DNA from: Gracilimonas mengyeensis
GTDB lineage: Bacteria; Bacteroidota; Rhodothermia; Balneolales; Balneolaceae
DNA length: 64,000 nt
Assembly: GCF_900182705.1 (NCBI RefSeq)
Contig: NZ_FXTP01000002.1
Location: forward strand, 124,001-188,000
Direction of reading: 5' to 3'
Position numbers and translations under genes: made by a program. Below are positions 51,645-64,000 of the stretch, piece after piece (position 1 is the stretch's first letter; every line of letters begins with the position of its first letter). The notes under the pieces are model-generated. The model saw only the letters and a list, made by a program, of their open reading frames with translations. It ran no database searches and was not told the origin of the DNA.

Positions 51645-51962
51645 CTAAAATGAGGGGACTACATCAACGCGGTAAAGCATATCCAATAGAGTGATGCTGA
51701 CCATCAGTATAAAAAAGGCAACGGCCATAAGCAGCAACATAGCATTGAACTTGGTATCCCAGTATAGGTTCATAAAGAAAGCGGCTACCAGGAAAGCTTT
51801 CACCAGGGCGATGCTCAAGGCTACAATAACATCAAACGGTGGGGGGATGGCAACAAATTTTGCCATTACCACTGTCAATATAGTTAAGATGAATAACCCT
51901 GCAGCAACGGCCCAAAGTTGGCCTGCAGAAGAAACATGGTGTTCGTGATTTTGTCCGCTCAT
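51645..51962 (-). CDS. ctaF: Cytochrome c oxidase subunit IV family protein
   Basis: A 105-residue membrane protein with three helices (about 16-34, 43-65 and 74-95). The pattern ALSIALVKAFLVAAFFMNLYWDTKFN is that of the prokaryotic subunit IV (CtaF/CyoD) family, which stabilises the oxidase without cofactors. A His-rich start (SGQNHEHHVSS) is present. It is the last gene of the cluster, followed by a strong terminator. Confidence 0.88.
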   Translation of the reverse strand: MSGQNHEHHVSSAGQLWAVAAGLFILTILTVVMAKFVAIPPPFDVIVALSIALVKAFLVAAFFMNLYWDTKFNAMLLLMAVAFFILMVSITLLDMLYRVDVVPSF

Positions 51963-52017: not shown

Positions 52018-52668
52018 TCATTCAATGAGATATAACAGAGGGAACAGGAAGATCCAGATCAGGTCAACCAAGTGCCAGTAAAGGCCTGTCATTTCCACAG
52101 GAGTGTAGTAATCGCTGCCAAACTCTCCGCGTCGGGCACGTACGTAAATCCACATCATCAACCCAATACCAATGATAACGTGCAAGGCGTGAATGCCGGT
52201 CATCATATAGTAGATGCTAAAGAAAATGGGCGCCTGTGCATGTTGCAGCCCTTCATAGCTGTAAAACTGTCCGGGGAAGATGCCTAAATGGAATTTATGG
52301 GAGTATTCAAAGCCTTTAATCACCATAAACACAATGGCAAGGCCAATGGTTATAAGCAGGTTTATTTTAAGGCCTTTGGTCTGATTCTTCTGTGCCGAAC
52401 GGATAGCCATGGCCACGGTTAAACTACTACCAATAAGCACGATAGTGTTTACTGCTCCCCAGAACGTATTCAGTTCAAGGGCGGCTTCCGTAAACAGTTC
52501 GGGATACCAGGCTCTGTACACGATATAAGCCATGAAGAGCCCGCCGAAGAATAAGATTTCATTTACCAGAAATACCCACATGCCCAGTTTGGCGGTATCA
52601 AATTGCTGATCTCCATCAACAAAGTGATGCTGCACATGAGCCGTTTGTGTTGTCGAATGATTCGCCAT
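52018..52668 (-). CDS. ctaE: Cytochrome c oxidase subunit III
   Basis: A 216-residue protein with five helices, the short form of subunit III typical of caa3 oxidases. Motifs include LGMWVFLVNEILFFGGLFMAYIVYR, FWGAVNTIVLIGSSLTVAMAIRSAQ, IYYMMTGIHALHVIIGIGLMMW and the terminal EMTGLYWHLVDLIWIFLFPLLYL. It surrounds but does not bind the redox centres. It lies 35 bases behind subunit I. Confidence 0.95.
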   Translation of the reverse strand: MANHSTTQTAHVQHHFVDGDQQFDTAKLGMWVFLVNEILFFGGLFMAYIVYRAWYPELFTEAALELNTFWGAVNTIVLIGSSLTVAMAIRSAQKNQTKGLKINLLITIGLAIVFMVIKGFEYSHKFHLGIFPGQFYSYEGLQHAQAPIFFSIYYMMTGIHALHVIIGIGLMMWIYVRARRGEFGSDYYTPVEMTGLYWHLVDLIWIFLFPLLYLIE

Positions 52669-52703: not shown

Positions 52704-54443
52704 TTAGTGAGCCGAGACTTTTTCTACGTCGATGTCTTCGGCGTGTCCATGACCATTATGGGAGTTTGCCAGCCCAAGCTGAAATTCTTCCATTGGTTTG
52801 TGATAGTCATATGGTCCATGAATTACTACCGGAGTGTGATCAAAGTTGTGCAGATCGGGAGGGGAGGTAGCTTGCCATTCCAGTCCACGGCTTCCCCATG
52901 GATTTGAAGGAGCTTTCTCTCCGCTCATCAGCGAACGGAACAAGTACCAGGCTATCAATAAAAAGCCAACGCCGAGGATGTACGATCCAAGGGTGGATGT
53001 TTGATGGAAAATGGTGAACTGATCGATGTAGTTGTAATAACGACGTGGCATCCCTTGCGAACCCATAATGAATTGGGGCAGGAAGGTCATGTTAAAGCCG
53101 ATGAAAATTAGCGCGGCTCCAATCTTAGCCTGGAACTCATTGTACATCTTACCCGTCATTTTTGGCCACCAGTAGTGGATACCGGCCAGGAGGGCAATCA
53201 GCGTTCCGCCCATCATCACATAGTGGAAGTGAGCCACTACGTAGTAGGTGTCGTGCAAGTGGATATCAGCGGCCAGAGAACCCAGCATAATACCGGTGAA
53301 ACCACCAATCGAGAATAGGAACAGGAAGATGAATACATAAATCATCGGGGTCTTCATCTCGATAGAACCTTTGTATAAGGTTGCCACCCAGTTCAAAATC
53401 TTAATACCGGTTGGAATTCCTACCAGGAAGGTGAGGAATGAGAAAATGGTGGTAGCAACGCCACTTTGGCCAGAGGTAAACATGTGGTGTCCCCAAACCA
53501 GGAAGCCGATAAAGGCAATGGCAAGGGAGGACAAGGCAATAGCCCAGTATCCAAAAATGTGTTTCTTGGAGAAGGTGGTAATCACTTCAGAAATAATACC
53601 GAAGCCCGGTACAATCATGATATATACCGCAGGGTGTGAATAGAACCAGAAAAAGTGCTGGAATAAAATCGGGTCACCGCCCATAGAGGCATCAAAGATT
53701 CCCATTCCAAGCACACGCTCCATAGTTAGCAGCAACAGGGTAATAGCTAATACCGGAGTAGCCAGAATCTGAATGATACTGGTGGCATACAAGGCCCATA
53801 GGTTCAATGGCAACTTGCCCCAGGTGATACCCGGTGCACGCATCTTGTGGATAGTGGCAATAAAGTTGGTTCCGGTTAAAATAGATGAGAACCCAAGTAT
53901 AAAGACGCCTAAAGTAACCCAGATAACGCTGGAGGTTGAATCGGTACTGTAAGGAGTGTAGAAAGTCCAGCCGGTATCTAAGCCATTGTTAGCCAGAGCA
54001 ATAAATGTAAAGACGGCACCAATCACGTAGATATAGAAACTGGTGAGGTTAAGTTTGGGGAAGGCTACATCCTTGGCTCCCAATTGCATAGGCAATATGA
54101 AGTTGCCAAGGGCGGCTGGAATGGAGGGGACCAGTACAAAAAATACCATAATGGCCCCGTGCAGTGTGAAAAACTGATTGTAAGTGTCAGCTTCAATAAA
54201 GGTTTTAGCTGGTGTTAGCAGCTCGGTACGTAGTAACAGGGCAAGAGCTCCGCCCAGTAGAAAGAAAAATGTTACCGAACCCAAATACATCAGGCCAATT
54301 TTCTTATGGTCAACGGTAGTTAACCAAGACCACAGACCCTTCTCTTCGGTCAGGTAGGTTTTCTTAGGATTTTCAGACGGTTTATAGCGCTTTACCTGTA
54401 GGGTCTTCATATTCCCTGAGGGTGATGCTTCAGCAGTTGCCAT
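52704..54443 (-). CDS. ctaD: Cytochrome c oxidase subunit I (caa3 type)
   Basis: A 579-residue catalytic subunit that reduces O2 to water at the haem a3-CuB centre and pumps protons. It has about 12-13 membrane helices. The haem ligand HGAIMVFF, the CuB/Tyr segment [21 protein letters not shown], the CuB ligand pair WGHHMFTSG and the haem-binding [17 protein letters not shown] are all intact. The Tyr of YSHPAVY is the covalently linked residue of A-type oxidases. It starts right at the end of subunit II, one base apart. Residues after about 500 form a soluble tail with His-rich [14 protein letters not shown]. Confidence 0.97.
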
Positions 54444-54444
54444 A

Positions 54445-55389
54445 TTATTCTTCTAAAGTTTTTATGTATTCAATAATGTCGGAAATGTCATCGTCACTCA
54501 AACGGCCCTCATAGCTGACCATTTGGTTTTGGTAGCCTTCAACAATCTTGGCCCCGGGATCGAGAATGGACTCACGAATGTAGTTTTCATCAGCTGTGAT
54601 CGTAGATCCGTCACTCATTGTTTCTTCACGTCCGTATAAGCCCTGGAAAGAAGGACCGATTTTTTGGGAACCATCCACAGAGTGGCAGGTTACACAGCCT
54701 TGGAGGGTAATGAGGTTTTCGCCGCGTTCAGCAGGAGTTCCGCCTCCACCTGAGCTTTGTTCAGATAGCCAGTTTTCAAAATCTTCCGGGGTATGTACTA
54801 TTACTTTGGCAAGCATGTCAGAGTGGGAGGTACCACAATACTCAGTACAAAATACCTGTGACTCGCCGGCTTCCTCTGCCTGGAACCAAACGTAGGTGTA
54901 TCGGTTTGGCAGTACATCCTGCTTAATCCGGTAATCCGGTACAAAAAAGGAATGGATAACATCCTCTGAACGCATCACAAGTTTTACGGGTTGCCCGGCG
55001 GGTACGTGCACTTCGTTACCAACCTGGGCACCATTTTCATACGAAAAAGTCCAGCCCCACTTGTAAGCAGAAACCTGGATTTCATACGCATTATCCGGTA
55101 CGGATTTGAGATTAAGCCAACCTTTATATCCCCAGCCAAACACGATAAACACCAAGAGCAGCGGTATAACCGACCAGGTGATTTCCAGTTTGTTATTGTG
55201 AGTGATTAAAGGGGTTTTATCATCGTCTGATCTACGCCGGTATTTGATGGCGAAATAAATCATGGCGACGGTAACACCGGCCAAAATGATGAAACTGACG
55301 ATGTGGATGAAACCCATCAGCGCATCGGTAGTAGCCCCCGTCATCGGAGATTTAAGCTCCGGGAGCATAAAGTCGAATAAACTGCCCAT
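54445..55389 (-). CDS. ctaC: Cytochrome c oxidase subunit II with fused cytochrome c
   Basis: A 314-residue subunit that takes electrons from c-type cytochromes. There are two N-terminal helices (about 28-48 and 72-92). The CuA domain has ligands His146, Cys181, Glu183, Cys185, His189 and Met192 ([14 protein letters not shown]), all present. After a Gly-rich linker (about 211-218) comes a cytochrome c domain with CVTCH (232-236) and an axial Met near 288, which defines the caa3 type. This domain closely resembles the second haem domain of ActE in the same cluster. No lipobox is seen. Confidence 0.96.
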
Positions 55390-55401: not shown

Positions 55402-56223
55402 TCAGTTATTAAGATTGGATTTTCTTCGTTTTTCTCGAAGCCATAGCATACCAAGGAATATACCGAGAATAATCAGCGTAGCCAAGCCGCCCAGCTTCAT
55501 AATATTGATCGCAACCGGAGCATAACTTCCGGATTCGGGATCATATTGGTAGCAATACATCACCACTTTATCGATGGTACTGCCAATATTGCCGTCCGCC
55601 GCTTCGTAGAGAGCGTTACGAACGTTAAATTCATCGTAGGAAATACCGTATAAGTACCGGGTTATTTTTCCCTCGGGACTCAGGAGCATAATAGCCGCTG
55701 AATGGGCATATTCTCCAGTTTCTTGTATTTCTTTGTATTGAAAACCAACTGATTGAACCACCTTGTCGATTTGGGATTTCTTGCCGGTTAAAAAATGCCA
55801 GCTGTCCCGTTCGCTTTCGGTCAGGTTTTTCAGATAGTTTTGTTTTGATGTTCTAGCCAGCGTTGCATCCTCTTGAGGATCAATACTGAACGAAATAACA
55901 ACAAAGTCTTTGCCGGGTTTCCAGCTTAAATCATTCACCACATTTATCACACCGTCAATCACCAGGCCGCAAAGCATGGGACAGTCATAATAAAGGGGAT
56001 TAAGCAGAACCGGTTTTCCTTCCTCCAACAAATCGCCTAAACGTACAGAATCACCTTCCGAGGTTGCAAATACAGCATCCAAGGGGATGGTCTCTCCAAG
56101 GTTTTCATCAATGCCGAGCTCTTGCAGCGCATCCGGCTGTTCACGGTTTAACTGCGCTTGTGCAGCTTGTGAAGTCAGAAGCACTGTGAGCCCAACAACT
56201 GCTAACAGTGCAAAGCGTCTCAT
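55402..56223 (-). CDS. SCO1/SenC copper-delivery protein
   Basis: A 273-residue copper chaperone that inserts copper into the CuA site of subunit II. Signal or anchor segment 1-23. A thioredoxin-like fold has the copper motif YYDCPMLCG (Cys81, Cys85) and the conserved His in EYAHSAAI (about 168), with VVISFSIDPQEDA between them. A second membrane segment is at about 245-262 near the C-terminus, so both ends may be anchored. The gene is adjacent to subunit II, supporting its role in oxidase assembly. Confidence 0.95.
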   Translation of the reverse strand: MRRFALLAVVGLTVLLTSQAAQAQLNREQPDALQELGIDENLGETIPLDAVFATSEGDSVRLGDLLEEGKPVLLNPLYYDCPMLCGLVIDGVINVVNDLSWKPGKDFVVISFSIDPQEDATLARTSKQNYLKNLTESERDSWHFLTGKKSQIDKVVQSVGFQYKEIQETGEYAHSAAIMLLSPEGKITRYLYGISYDEFNVRNALYEAADGNIGSTIDKVVMYCYQYDPESGSYAPVAINIMKLGGLATLIILGIFLGMLWLREKRRKSNLNN

Positions 56224-56230
56224 GTATTAT

Positions 56231-56761
56231 TTAGTCGACAGCTATTTTACTAATAGCGCTATCTATTGGGATTCTATAAATACCTTCTTCAATGTCTACT
56301 ACGCCAAAACTATTCAATTCTTCTTCCTGGCGTTCATACAAATCATTAACATCGGAAAAAACTGTTTGGTTCGAAACTTCCCGCTGTGCTTCAAACAAGC
56401 TGTATTGCGAGAAGAACACCAAACCAATCACAAAAATGATAACAAGTGCTGTACCAAAGGATGACCAGAAGATCAGCTTCTTATAATTGAGCTCATCACT
56501 CATTACTCCCTGGCTTACGGCCACTGCAAACTCATCATCTTCCGTAGCAATTTCTACGTCTTCGGCATCACTCTCTTCTTCATGGGCTGATTGTGCCGCA
56601 AAAATGCGAGCAGCATCCTCATGTAACTGAGCTGTCCAGGCAATCACCTGGTCTTCAGACAGGTCGTACTTTTCAGCAATCTTCTCAATTACGGTACGGC
56701 CTTGTGAAACAGCTTCGAGAGCAACTTTTGCTTTAAATTCTGAACTATACTTTTCTGACAT
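56231..56761 (-). CDS. Transposase-type HTH fused to a membrane domain
   Basis: A 176-residue protein not matching a known characterised family. Residues 1-50 (MSEKYSSEFKAKVALEAVSQGRTVIEKIAEKYDLSEDQVIAWTAQL) look like the N-terminal helix-turn-helix of IS3-type transposases. An acidic linker (57-80) leads to one membrane helix (97-118). After a short Gln/Glu-rich helix, the C-terminal segment FGVVDIEEGIYRIPIDSAISKI carries a GxxRIPIDxAI motif that I recall in small proteins of other oxidase clusters. It sits between actF and SCO with 7-12 base gaps, so it is cotranscribed. A possible assembly or anchoring factor; no transposase catalytic domain is present. Confidence 0.85.
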   Translation of the reverse strand: MSEKYSSEFKAKVALEAVSQGRTVIEKIAEKYDLSEDQVIAWTAQLHEDAARIFAAQSAHEEESDAEDVEIATEDDEFAVAVSQGVMSDELNYKKLIFWSSFGTALVIIFVIGLVFFSQYSLFEAQREVSNQTVFSDVNDLYERQEEELNSFGVVDIEEGIYRIPIDSAISKIAVD

Positions 56762-56773
56762 CGGTCAAATCAA

Positions 56774-57985
56774 TTATTGATGATAAGTTTTGGATAAACA
56801 ATCTTCGAGCTTCGGATCGTTCTTTGGCACCATATTGTGCTTTTTAAACGTTCTGAAGAATAATCCAAAGAAAATTCCTCCCAATCCAAGGAAGGCCGCA
56901 ATGTCCATCCAGCTGAAGTGGATGCCGTGATCATAAAAAGCGGGCATCGCAATCCAGTAAATTTCTGCAAAGTGAACAATCAGTACCAGGGCTGACACAA
57001 GGCCAAGCACGGTACGGTTTTTCTTGGCTTCCCGGTTCAACAAAACAATAAAAGGAAGCACAAAACGGAAAATGAGTAAGCTGTACGCAATGTATTGCCA
57101 GCCACCCTCCAAACGGTGGTAATACCACAGGGTCTCTTCAGGAAGGTTTGCATAATAGATCAATAAGAATTGGCTAAATGCGATGTAAGCGTAAAATACA
57201 GTGAATGCGAAGAACCATGCGCCAAGATCGTACACATGTACTTGTCGGATGGTTTCTTGCAGCAGGCCTTTGCGGTGCAGGTAAAACACGGTAAGAATCA
57301 TAACCGCCCAGAAAGCCTGGAAGCTCATGGCGAAAAAGTACACGCCAAACATGGTAGAGAACCAGTGTGGATCCAGAGACATCAACCAGTCAAAGCTTGC
57401 AAAAGCAACGGTAAAGGCAAATAACAGGATGCCTGGTGCACTGAACTTTCGTAGCAGGGAAGTAAGTCCCCAGTCGTTGGTTCTGTCCATCTTAACAGAC
57501 ACTTGATGGAGTTTATATCCTAAAAAGCCCCAGATGGCGAAATAGATGAACTGACGAATTACAAAAAAGGTAGAGTTCAGGTAGGCGGATTTACCACTGA
57601 TAATCTTGTCGTACTCTTCGGTGCCGTATTCCAATAATTCAGGATGACTCCAGTGGAACAGGTTATGAATACCTAAAATGATAGGCAGTACAAAGATAGC
57701 CCATATCCAAAGGTTTGAGAAGAAAGACTCGGATATCCGGCGAACTACTACGCCCCAGCTGCTGCGTGTTATGTGATGTAACATCACCATAAGAAGAGCG
57801 GCCAGTGCAATACCGGTAAAAAAGACAAAACTAACCAGGTACGAGAAAAAGAACTGGTCGGCATCCAGGAAATAGCCGATAATAGTGGCAATTAAGCCTG
57901 CGGCACCCAATCCAAACAGGGCGCGCGGAACTTTGCTGTCGGCTGGAAATTGTAAAGAATCTGTAATTGTAGGCTTATGACTCAT
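56774..57985 (-). CDS. actF: Alternative complex III subunit ActF
   Basis: A 403-residue integral membrane subunit of quinol:cytochrome c oxidoreductase. Roughly ten hydrophobic segments are present (for example SYLVSFVFFTGIALAALLMVMLHHIT, SNLWIWAIFVLPIILGIHNLFHW, FFVIRQFIYFAIWGFLGYKLH, ILLFAFTVAFASFDWLMSLDPHWFSTMFGVYFF). The LMSLDPHWFSTMFGVYFFAMSF block is characteristic of ActF, a NrfD-related quinol-side subunit paired with ActC. The conserved His residues likely sit near the quinol site. Gene order after actE is as in Rhodothermus. Confidence 0.93.
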   Translation of the reverse strand: MSHKPTITDSLQFPADSKVPRALFGLGAAGLIATIIGYFLDADQFFFSYLVSFVFFTGIALAALLMVMLHHITRSSWGVVVRRISESFFSNLWIWAIFVLPIILGIHNLFHWSHPELLEYGTEEYDKIISGKSAYLNSTFFVIRQFIYFAIWGFLGYKLHQVSVKMDRTNDWGLTSLLRKFSAPGILLFAFTVAFASFDWLMSLDPHWFSTMFGVYFFAMSFQAFWAVMILTVFYLHRKGLLQETIRQVHVYDLGAWFFAFTVFYAYIAFSQFLLIYYANLPEETLWYYHRLEGGWQYIAYSLLIFRFVLPFIVLLNREAKKNRTVLGLVSALVLIVHFAEIYWIAMPAFYDHGIHFSWMDIAAFLGLGGIFFGLFFRTFKKHNMVPKNDPKLEDCLSKTYHQ

Positions 57986-58010: not shown

Positions 58011-59039
58011 TTAGTTATTAAGATTTTCGATGTACAGGATAATGGACTCAATCTCTTGCTCTGAAAGATAGCTGTAGGAGGCCATAACACCCTGTTCAAA
58101 ATCTACAGGTTTCTTGGCTTCGGGGGAAACTATCGATTCGCGAATGTAGTCTTCATCTTTGGTTACAGTGATGGTTTCGCCTTCAGCTGTCACTACCTCG
58201 CCAACACTGCCAAATAATCCTGCCCAAGTAGGTCCAATTCCGGAAGAACCGTCTTCGCTGTGGCAAGTACCGCAGGCATTTGCGGTGATAGCTTCTTTAC
58301 CCATTTCTATAGATGGTTCGGCGCTTCCGGCACTATCTTGCTTAGCTGCTGCAGCAGAATCGGCTGCAGCCTGCTTTTCTCTAAATTCTGCCTGCATTTC
58401 AGAAAGGTCTACATCATATTGATTCATTTCGGCTTCAGGCACGTTTTGGCTGGCCTGTAACGCTCTGATGTAACCAACAATAGCCCAGCGGTCTTTAGGT
58501 GCAATCTGCGTTGCATACGAAGGCATCGTTCGTACACCGCTGTAGATAGCATCGTATAGCTGGCCGTCTGGTAAATCAAGAATTCTTTGGTCGTGATAGG
58601 AAGGAGCAGGTACATATCCGTAGTTACCTTCCATGATTACTCCGTTGCCGGCTCCGCCTTTACCGTGGCAAGGCATACAGTACACTTCGTAGCGGTCTTT
58701 ACCGCGGTAGAGAAATGATTTTGTGAGCTCAACGGGGATATAGTCAATGTAATCGCCGTTCTCGTCAACGCCTTCGTAATAGGCACGATCGGTTTTGGCG
58801 TAACCGCGGGCAACCGTCCCTTCAACCGGGGCACGCATAGAGCGTCCATCTGCAAAGAAGTTGTTTTCTTCCTGTGCTTCCATGCGAGGCTGCTGATCCA
58901 TGTTCATATTGGGATGAACAGGGGGCTTGTCGGAAAGTTGTCCCTGGCAGGCCGTAAGCCCAAGACCGAGCGCAACAATACCGGCAAGTTTAAACATTCC
59001 TTTAATCTTCATTCCTGGAAATGATATGTAGGTATTCAT
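58011..59039 (-). CDS. actE: Alternative complex III cytochrome c subunit ActE (two haems)
   Basis: A 342-residue lipoprotein cytochrome. The ATG at 59037-59039 sits one base beyond the actD stop; a longer in-frame start inside actD is less likely. Lipobox LTAC with Cys31. The first haem site is CMPCH (121-125) with axial-type Met at TMPSYA (172). The second, CGTCH (256-260), is in an extra C-terminal domain joined by an Ala/Lys/Asp-rich linker (216-245). That extra domain matches the cytochrome domain of subunit II (IGPTWAGLFG, YIRESI, PEAK). As far as I recall, Rhodothermus ActE has one haem, so this one is extended. Confidence 0.93.
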   Translation of the reverse strand: MNTYISFPGMKIKGMFKLAGIVALGLGLTACQGQLSDKPPVHPNMNMDQQPRMEAQEENNFFADGRSMRAPVEGTVARGYAKTDRAYYEGVDENGDYIDYIPVELTKSFLYRGKDRYEVYCMPCHGKGGAGNGVIMEGNYGYVPAPSYHDQRILDLPDGQLYDAIYSGVRTMPSYATQIAPKDRWAIVGYIRALQASQNVPEAEMNQYDVDLSEMQAEFREKQAAADSAAAAKQDSAGSAEPSIEMGKEAITANACGTCHSEDGSSGIGPTWAGLFGSVGEVVTAEGETITVTKDEDYIRESIVSPEAKKPVDFEQGVMASYSYLSEQEIESIILYIENLNN

Positions 59040-59040
59040 G

Positions 59041-59586
59041 TTAGTCATATACTTCCTCGATGTGGGTAGCACCGGCTTCTTCAAATAATGCTTTGACTTT
59101 CTCAGTCTCAAACAGCTTGTCGTCTGCTTCAATGCAGGCAAAAAAGCCATCGTCGGTTACTTTTTTAAATCTTTTTGAATTGAATAGCGGGTTGTGAAGT
59201 TTTGGCAGGCCGTTCAGGAAAAACATCCCGAAAACAGCGCCAAAAGCTGAAAGCAACACCGTTAGCTCAAAAGTAATGGGCACCCATGCCGGAGCATTTA
59301 AAAAGGGTTTACCACTAATATTGATAGGATAATCCACTACTGACATGAAATACATCATGGCAATAGCACCGGTAAATCCTACAAGCCCATGGCCAAGTAC
59401 AATCCAGCCCAGTTTTGATTTTTCCAACTTCATAGCCTTATCCATTCCATGAATAGGGAAGGGGCTGAAAGTATCAAATTGCTTATAGCCGGATTCGGAC
59501 ATGACTTTAGCCACGTCTGTTAACTCCTTGGGGTTTTTAAATTCGGCGAGTATGCCGTGTAATTCTTTTTCTTCAGTCGTACTCAT
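59041..59586 (-). CDS. actD: Alternative complex III subunit ActD (DUF3341)
   Basis: A 181-residue subunit with two membrane helices (about 60-82 and 101-124) and soluble ends. The segments KVMSESGYKQFDTFSPFPIHGMDKAMKL and PKLHNPLFNSKRFKKVTDDGFFACIEA are typical of ActD. It carries no haem or metal site and is thought to help hold the peripheral subunits to the membrane part. It is positioned between actC (8 bases) and actE (1 base). Confidence 0.95.
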   Translation of the reverse strand: MSTTEEKELHGILAEFKNPKELTDVAKVMSESGYKQFDTFSPFPIHGMDKAMKLEKSKLGWIVLGHGLVGFTGAIAMMYFMSVVDYPINISGKPFLNAPAWVPITFELTVLLSAFGAVFGMFFLNGLPKLHNPLFNSKRFKKVTDDGFFACIEADDKLFETEKVKALFEEAGATHIEEVYD

Positions 59587-59594
59587 AATCTTTC

Positions 59595-61022
59595 TTATAC
59601 CTTCTCTGGTTGAGGTTCAGGTACTTCTACTTTCGGTTCGTGGAATTCACCGGTTTCCTCATCATAGTTATGAGGATCGCCCAATGGGATTACCGCCTTA
59701 ACTTCGGCGAGAGCAATCATAGGCAGGAAGCGCAGGAACAAGAGGAACATGGTAAAGAACAGTCCGAATGTGCCTACGTAAGTCAACACGTCCCAGATGG
59801 TTGGTGAGAAATAATCCCAGCTGGAAGGTAAATAGTCATTTGCCAGTGAAGTTACGGTAATTACAAAACGCTCAAACCACATACCGATGTTCACTACAAT
59901 AGAAATAAAGAAGGTAAAGCCTACACTACGGCGTAATTTCTTGGACCAGAAGAACTGGGGAGAAAGCACGTTACAAGTCATCATAATCCAGTAAGCCCAG
60001 GCGTAAGGTCCGGTAGCACGCAAAATAAAGATGGCTTTTTCATATTCAACGCCACTGTACCAGGCGATGAAGAACTCCATCATGTAAGCAAAGCCTACCA
60101 TAGAGCCGGTAACCAGGATCACAATATTCATTTTCTCCATGTGATCGTCGGTCATAATGTCTTTCATGCCGTAGATCTTACGAGCGATAATCATCAGCGT
60201 AAGCACCATGGCGAAACCGGAAAAAACAGCACCGGCAACAAAGTAGGGAGGGAAAATGGTGGTGTGCCAGCCGGGAATCATGGAAACGGCAAAGTCAAAA
60301 GATACAATGGTGTGTACTGAAAGTACCAGTGGAGTAGCCAGACCGGCCAGAATCATATAAGCTTTTTCATAATTCCACCAGTGACGGTTGCTACCGGTCC
60401 ATCCCAGCGAGAAAATACCGTAAGCTACTTTTCGAATCTTGTCGGTAGCGCGGTCACGGATAGTGGCAAGGTCAGGAACCAGGCCTACATACCAGAATAG
60501 CAGTGAAACGGTGAAATAGGTGGAAACCGCAAACACATCCCAAAGCAGGGGAGAGTTAAAGTTGGGCCACATGGCCATTTGATTGGGGATGGGGAATACC
60601 CAGTAAATCACCCAAATACGACCTACGTGAATGGCGGGAAATACCCCGGCACACATTACGGCAAAAATGGTCATAGCTTCCGCAAAACGGTTAATGGCGG
60701 TACGCCAGTCTTGGCGGAAGAGGAACAGGATAGCGGAAATCAAGGTTCCGGCGTGGCCGATACCAACCCACCATACAAAGTTAATAATGGCCCATCCCCA
60801 GCCTACAGGGTTATTTAGTCCCCATATTCCGGTTCCTTCCCAAATCAAATATCCAATAGCTACTACCATAAGCATCAGCAGTGCATTGGCCCCAATCATG
60901 GCTACATACCATGCTTTGGGAGTGGGTCGTAAATTTATATCAGTAACCAGTCGTGTTAGGCTCGAAAAATCGTGATCGCCTTTTACAAGAGCGGGTTCCG
61001 GTACGTATTGGTATTTACTCAT
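59595..61022 (-). CDS. actC: Alternative complex III subunit ActC (NrfD-like)
   Basis: A 475-residue integral membrane subunit of the PSRC/NrfD family with about ten helices, forming the quinol-oxidising membrane core together with ActF. Marks include [73 protein letters not shown] and [63 protein letters not shown]. The His residues in GIGHAG and the HT of [10 protein letters not shown] are those usually placed near quinol. It lies 27 bases behind actB. Confidence 0.96.

Positions 61023-61049: not shown

Positions 61050-64000
<2,951 letters not shown>

Follow-up and report, generated by a model that had tools for sequence, protein, structure and literature searches.

The window, a 64,000-nucleotide stretch of a Gracilimonas mengyeensis contig, carries on its reverse strand a cluster of genes for alternative complex III (ACIII) and a caa3 oxidase. 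Six ACIII genes come first in the direction of reading: actB (61050..63929, putative start codon, with Fer4 and Molydop_binding domains), actC (59595..61022; Pfam NrfD, E 4.7e-26), actD (59041..59586; Pfam ActD, E 4.3e-64; PDB 6f0k_D, E 6.4e-49), actE (58011..59150, putative start codon, with two cytochrome c domains matching Pfam Cytochrome_CBB3 and Cytochrom_C), actF (56774..57985; PDB 6f0k_F, E 2.6e-107; 8k9e_F, E 1.4e-67) and actG (56231..56761), of which actB, actC and actE are named by position. A gene for an SCO copper chaperone follows (55402..56223; Pfam SCO1-SenC, E 1.6e-11), and then the genes for oxidase subunit II with a cytochrome c domain (54445..55389; Pfam COX2 and Cytochrom_C), subunit I (52704..54443; Pfam COX1, and TIGR02891 above its cut-off), subunit III (52018..52668; Pfam COX3) and subunit IV (51645..51962; TIGR02229 caa3_sub_IV above its cut-off). 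Two separate stretches of the window actE product match cytochrome c, as against the one-heme form described for R. marinus in PMC5928083.

The actG product is a protein of 176 aa with an OrfA-type HTH at its N-terminus. The gene begins with ATG, and the stop-to-stop frame adds one residue ahead of it, so that the start is hardly in doubt. The 3' end of actF lies 12 bases upstream and the SCO start 7 bases downstream; the tight packing within an electron-transport cluster, as proposed from the sequence alone, is thus borne out by these gaps and by the matches of the ACIII–caa3 genes. The HTH spans residues 3–55 (56597..56755; Pfam HTH_Tnp_1, the predicted model and the IS3 OrfA match) and is followed by an acidic linker of residues 56–96 (56474..56596), which ends in a segment around G85...LNYK94 that is conserved in the family alignment (A1). 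A single predicted membrane helix covers approximately residues 97–119 (56405..56473), placed by eye as a hydrophobic stretch on the sequence and the alignment. The conserved C-terminal stretch LNSFGVVDIEEGIYRIPIDSAI... (56234..56317), which is marked by the alignment and the match to 8k9e_G, closes the protein with ...GIYRIPIDSAI. Linker, helix and RIPIDSAI end are all visible in the sequence, as the earlier reading had described them.

The membrane half of 56231–56761 is assigned as ActG, an optional seventh subunit of ACIII, because of its position after actF and the profile match to a solved ActG chain, 8k9e_G. On this assignment, the anchor half is a known accessory subunit, not a new protein. 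actF is the next labelled open reading frame upstream of actG at 43 of the 44 family loci, some of which share a genome, and the remaining locus starts at a contig end. With a profile of the C-terminal part built on 46 class-wide sequences (A5), 8k9e_G is the first match in the PDB (E 4.9e-4; domain E 0.0019), the next being at 0.1; this alignment spans 37 profile positions only, over the C-terminal motif. The family profile of the membrane half (A2) places the same chain third, at E 1.2, behind two interferon matches which are taken as chance; DUF7358, FumaraseC_C and other Pfam matches below the cut-off are set aside likewise. The F and D chains of 8k9e match the window ActF and ActD. The two ActG proteins share a C-terminal LNS(Y/F)G...IPID.A motif, but 8k9e_G has 112 aa and is too short for an additional domain, whereas the window ActG has an extra OrfA-derived HTH of about 55 aa and the acidic linker in front.

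In the alignment of 37 family members (A1), a conserved block precedes the helix, LNSFGVVDxEEGxYRIPIDSAI follows it, and G153, Y162, P165 and D167 are invariant. Lys and Arg average 1.78 per 15 aa on the N-terminal side of the helix and 1.03 on the C-terminal side (67 sequences; a small difference), and no signal peptide is seen by eye. The N-terminus would therefore be cytoplasmic and the C-terminus periplasmic. Prediction of the full-length structure from five sequences is poor (mean pLDDT 46.9).

According to PMC5928083, R. marinus ActG was predicted to be single-span and was found by mass fingerprinting, without density, and the ActG gene is missing from some act clusters; the single helix likens this protein, by description, to the window ActG. 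A passage of PMC9316378 contradicts this, giving ActG as absent from R. marinus. By gene order, the window ActG can be likened to those of Chloroflexus aurantiacus (Caur_0627 and Caur_2139), as one Chloroflexus actG is followed by SCO1/SenC and oxidase genes in the order seen in the window (PMC3150298). Nitrospirales genomes with ACIII that have neither actF nor actG are noted in a part of PMC12342949, and a term search of PMC8552683 gave no mention of ActG. Searches of open-licence papers brought up no statement on the function of ActG, and none of the titles and abstracts that they listed concerns an ACIII subunit with an HTH.

At E <= 0.01 with A2, the ActG half is present in 84 of 92 family, 114 of 128 order and 209 of 244 class genomes, the order and class sets including the smaller ones; the family figure becomes 85/92 if G084 is included, whose sole match is an HTH-only frame and not ActG. 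Among 296 genomes sampled from the phylum, A5 matches 85 at E <= 0.001, of which 72 belong to the class and 13 do not; a few of the latter are apparently chance matches. The RIPID.A motif unites the ActGs of the class with some found elsewhere in the phylum. At two phylum-level loci (L207 and L215), the protein between actF and SCO ends in SYGWV(S/N)KDSGIARIPIERAM, a type of motif that also occurs in small proteins beside oxidase genes elsewhere. In G057, an assembly of about 330 contigs, three ActG matches lie on contigs C37, C52 and C130 (L051, L052), perhaps because the genome has more than one ACIII cluster or the assembly is mixed.

The N-terminus of the window ActG is identified by sequence comparison as the HTH of an IS3-type OrfA. 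Residues 3–50 match Pfam HTH_Tnp_1 with E 1.1e-5 and 25.9 bits, above the gathering score of 24.1, and the HTH as a 55-aa fragment gives E 2.4e-6. Among 30 HTH-bearing family members scanned, 24 match the same model at E <= 0.1 and six do not. Profile–profile comparison (hhalign) of the ActG HTH with 11 HTH_Tnp_1 domains from outside ActG yields a probability of 97.4 and E 1.3e-11. The best of three OrfAs compared, that of L168 (genome G109), is 35% identical over 63 aa; the similarity extends beyond the HTH into the residues behind helix 3 and ends by residue 67. At L168, as at L154, an OrfB with an rve domain follows OrfA in another frame, and the two OrfBs match the NCBIfam IS3 transposase model with 246 and 235 bits, respectively, against a cut-off of 160. 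ActG and the OrfAs themselves match an IS66 TnpA model and an IS3 model of NCBIfam, both below the cut-off. These results uphold the IS3-type HTH that the sequence-only reading had seen at the N-terminus, as well as its observation that a DDE domain is missing behind it. IS3 elements encode the DDE domain in OrfB and not in the HTH protein, as is seen at L154 and L168, and its absence from ActG is thus expected. ActG resembles IS3-family OrfA in the sequence of the HTH and of the residues that follow helix 3, but differs from it in having no adjacent OrfB (SCO is next downstream, and no OrfB with a DDE domain is found there), in having lost most of the basic surface and in being fused to a membrane subunit. 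The C-terminal end of IS3 OrfA carries heptads; this end is absent in the window ActG, which has the acidic linker and membrane helix instead.

Within the family, probably Balneolaceae, the HTH is present on 71 of the 83 ActGs with a readable N-terminus, that of G048 being entered as HTH-bearing and G036, in which the N-terminus is off the contig, being dropped from the 84 ActG-bearing genomes. Outside the family, the HTH profile (A3, E <= 10) finds it at none of the 59 ActG loci read: 20 lie in other families of this order, with two in a single genome, 31 elsewhere in the class and eight elsewhere in the phylum; the only HTH match in that scan, L218, is a family member. In the proposed survey of clusters, as run within the phylum, the fusion stands at the same place across the family, but it is absent from 20/20 order and 39/39 class and phylum loci.

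The 12 family ActGs without the HTH (G021, G027, G033, G035, G038, G039, G040, G074, G081, G082, G085 and G086) show that this domain is dispensable, as ActG stays after its loss. In a FastTree phylogeny of ActF and SCO from 105 loci, all 55 HTH-bearing tips and 12 HTH-less family tips form one clade of 67 (support 0.945), and all 38 outgroup loci fall outside it. On this tree a single-gain model takes six losses, and plain parsimony takes five changes, interpreted as a single gain and three losses, with the HTH regained in G031/G032. Both the G021/G027 loss (support 0.98) and that in G074 (0.893) are nested within HTH-bearing groups; apparent remnants of helix 1 are seen by eye for both (L034/L035 and L043), and the G021 and G027 ActGs align to the window protein with a gap of 42 residues. 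The data fit a single gain of the HTH at the base of the family, followed by three to six losses, some of which left remnants.

Two alternatives concern the origin and the persistence of the HTH. One is that the three-helix bundle has no relation to IS3 elements and is a product of convergence. Three-helix bundles are common. For the first 58 residues, three helices are predicted (7–18, 22–31 and 36–57; mean pLDDT 84.7, from three input sequences); a Foldseek search with this model finds nothing at E <= 0.001, and VIA-align gives middling Z scores, at best 7.0, with many homeodomains. The same search ranks TnpE (2rn7) third, at Z 6.7, tied with the neighbouring ranks, and the Pfam, profile–profile and direct BLAST matches to OrfA, with a similarity that goes beyond the HTH, largely refute convergence and make it very improbable. 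The other is that a segment of OrfA was captured by chance and persists as a tolerated N-terminal extension which is slowly disappearing. This would suit the loss of the HTH at least three times, its absence from 59/59 loci outside the family and its divergence in several genera. However, 71 of the 83 readable genomes, across the family, retain it, and the HTH is under purifying selection. pN/pS, given as uncorrected proportions with pS partly saturated, was taken from the HTH-bearing genomes of three genera (8/8 of g1, 7/8 of g2 and 10/12 of g3). In g1 and g3 the HTH (0.22 and 0.18) lies below the linker (0.32 and 0.50), with the membrane half at 0.16 and 0.25; in g2 the HTH (0.42) is less constrained than the membrane half (0.22) and also exceeds the linker (0.36), as a passenger might. 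Across 30 members, the columns of K10, A17 and W42 show a conservation of 90% or more. A relict of this kind thus seems improbable, though less so than convergence.

A third alternative retains the original activity of the domain: ActG would be a membrane-tethered transcription regulator like ToxR or CadC, its HTH binding DNA near the operon and tying transcription to the state of the complex. OrfA is a DNA-binding protein, the HTH fold is predicted, and a membrane helix with a cytoplasmic N-terminus would fit. In ToxR and CadC, too, the HTH is N-terminal, a single membrane helix is present and the C-terminus is, as in ActG, probably periplasmic; the class of their HTH differs from the HTH_Tnp_1 type. 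Unlike these regulators, ActG has a mostly acidic helix 3 and belongs to a respiratory subunit family that is mostly without the HTH. Across 30 ActG HTHs, chosen as representatives of the 71, the mean net charge is -2.37 for the domain and -1.80 for helix 3, as compared with +2.50 and +1.89 for 18 other HTH_Tnp_1 domains of related genomes (Mann–Whitney p 7e-8 and 6e-7, respectively, both ignoring kinship). The 18 are what is left of 30 HTH_Tnp_1 matches after removal of nine ActGs and of L162 (a duplicate lying at the end of a contig), L173 (incomplete) and L174 (which has a stop); some pairs among them are near-identical, and only L154 and L168 were traced to an OrfB. Helix 3 of the window ActG has a net charge of -3, and the residue after the conserved Trp, Lys or Arg in OrfA and in most of the other domains, is mostly neither in ActG. 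A few ActG HTHs are not acidic (L020, domain +2 and helix 3 +3; L014 and L050, domain +1). As helix 3 is acidic on average, DNA binding by the ActG HTH is unlikely. The sequence-only reading had left two options for the domain, gene regulation and protein binding: the predominance of an acidic helix 3 and the repeated loss of the HTH, three to six times while ActG was retained, speak against the former and leave a regulator unlikely, more so than a relict, and the latter is favoured.

The preferred reading is that this actG carries a domesticated OrfA HTH which serves as a cytoplasmic docking module on the ACIII–caa3 supercomplex, with a probability of roughly 60%. A domesticated HTH, apparently membrane-anchored, in such a cluster is what had been suggested at the outset, and the OrfA match, the selection on the domain and the matches of the operon genes agree with it. 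The short N-terminus of ActG gained the IS3-type HTH at the base of the family; the domain has since retained a three-helix fold under selection, whereas the basic surface is gone in most members. On the cytoplasmic side it most likely acts as a small docking module that holds ACIII, the oxidase partner or an assembly factor, and the periplasmic RIPIDSAI segment probably anchors ActG to the complex. Co-varying subunit lengths gave no convincing partner for the HTH among nine neighbours: the lengths of nine neighbour proteins compared with HTH loss give p 0.0003 for cox4, 0.005 for actE, 0.029 for cox3 and >0.1 for the other six, values which ignore kinship and nine-fold testing and come from at most 27 HTH-bearing and 12 HTH-less loci.

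The N-terminal end of ActG looks like a grafting site that varies among lineages. A different N-terminal domain is found at 16 of the 31 class loci (L126-L131, L136, L139-L144, L204, L216 and L217; tool families f7, f9, f10, f15 and f18). It has a W...Y.LQVA...F...FFWRV-like pattern and lies apparently on the cytoplasmic side. The domain may be weakly fibronectin-III-like: Pfam fn3 is matched below the cut-off in two of ten proteins (E 0.091 and 0.043), and there is one match in the PDB, Titin, at E 0.9. The fibronectin-like profile by which the 16 loci are counted (A6) was built from 13 of them, the other three being new. Fibronectin-III domains on the cytoplasmic side are unusual. The occurrence of a second type of N-terminal domain in related families points to this end of ActG as a convenient place for attaching one. 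A broader and tentative possibility, rather doubtful at present, is that ACIII–caa3 has a plug-in site at the cytoplasmic end of ActG, to which separate lineages have added unrelated domains, a disarmed OrfA HTH in one family and the fibronectin-III-like domain in others of the class, that dock the supercomplex to lineage-specific cytoplasmic partners.

The OrfA-type HTH also occurs on sensor kinases. In G034 (660 aa; L219:2552-4534, forward strand) and G074 (659 aa; L220:471-2450, reverse strand), the first approximately 60 residues of a PAS-PAS-HisKA_2 kinase are an OrfA-type HTH, and both match the ActG HTH by tblastn; the L219 kinase has HTH_28 and HTH_Tnp_1 matches in Pfam below the cut-off, and the L220 kinase has no Pfam HTH match. 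The first 90 residues of the kinase have matches in 35 of the 244 class genomes, largely ActGs and short frames of transposase size. Among the matches listed, only the frames in G034 and G074 exceed 600 aa, and one in G037 has 410 aa. G074, a tree neighbour of G034, has lost the HTH of its own ActG. That two related genomes have a similar HTH fused to a PAS histidine kinase hints that the OrfA-type HTH has been reused as a protein adaptor.

If the docking reading is true, this is a clear case in which the DNA-binding domain of an insertion sequence was recruited as a structural component of a respiratory complex, and the N-terminal end of ActG would thereby be given a testable role, for which the HTH-less ActGs of the family are natural deletions that may serve as controls.
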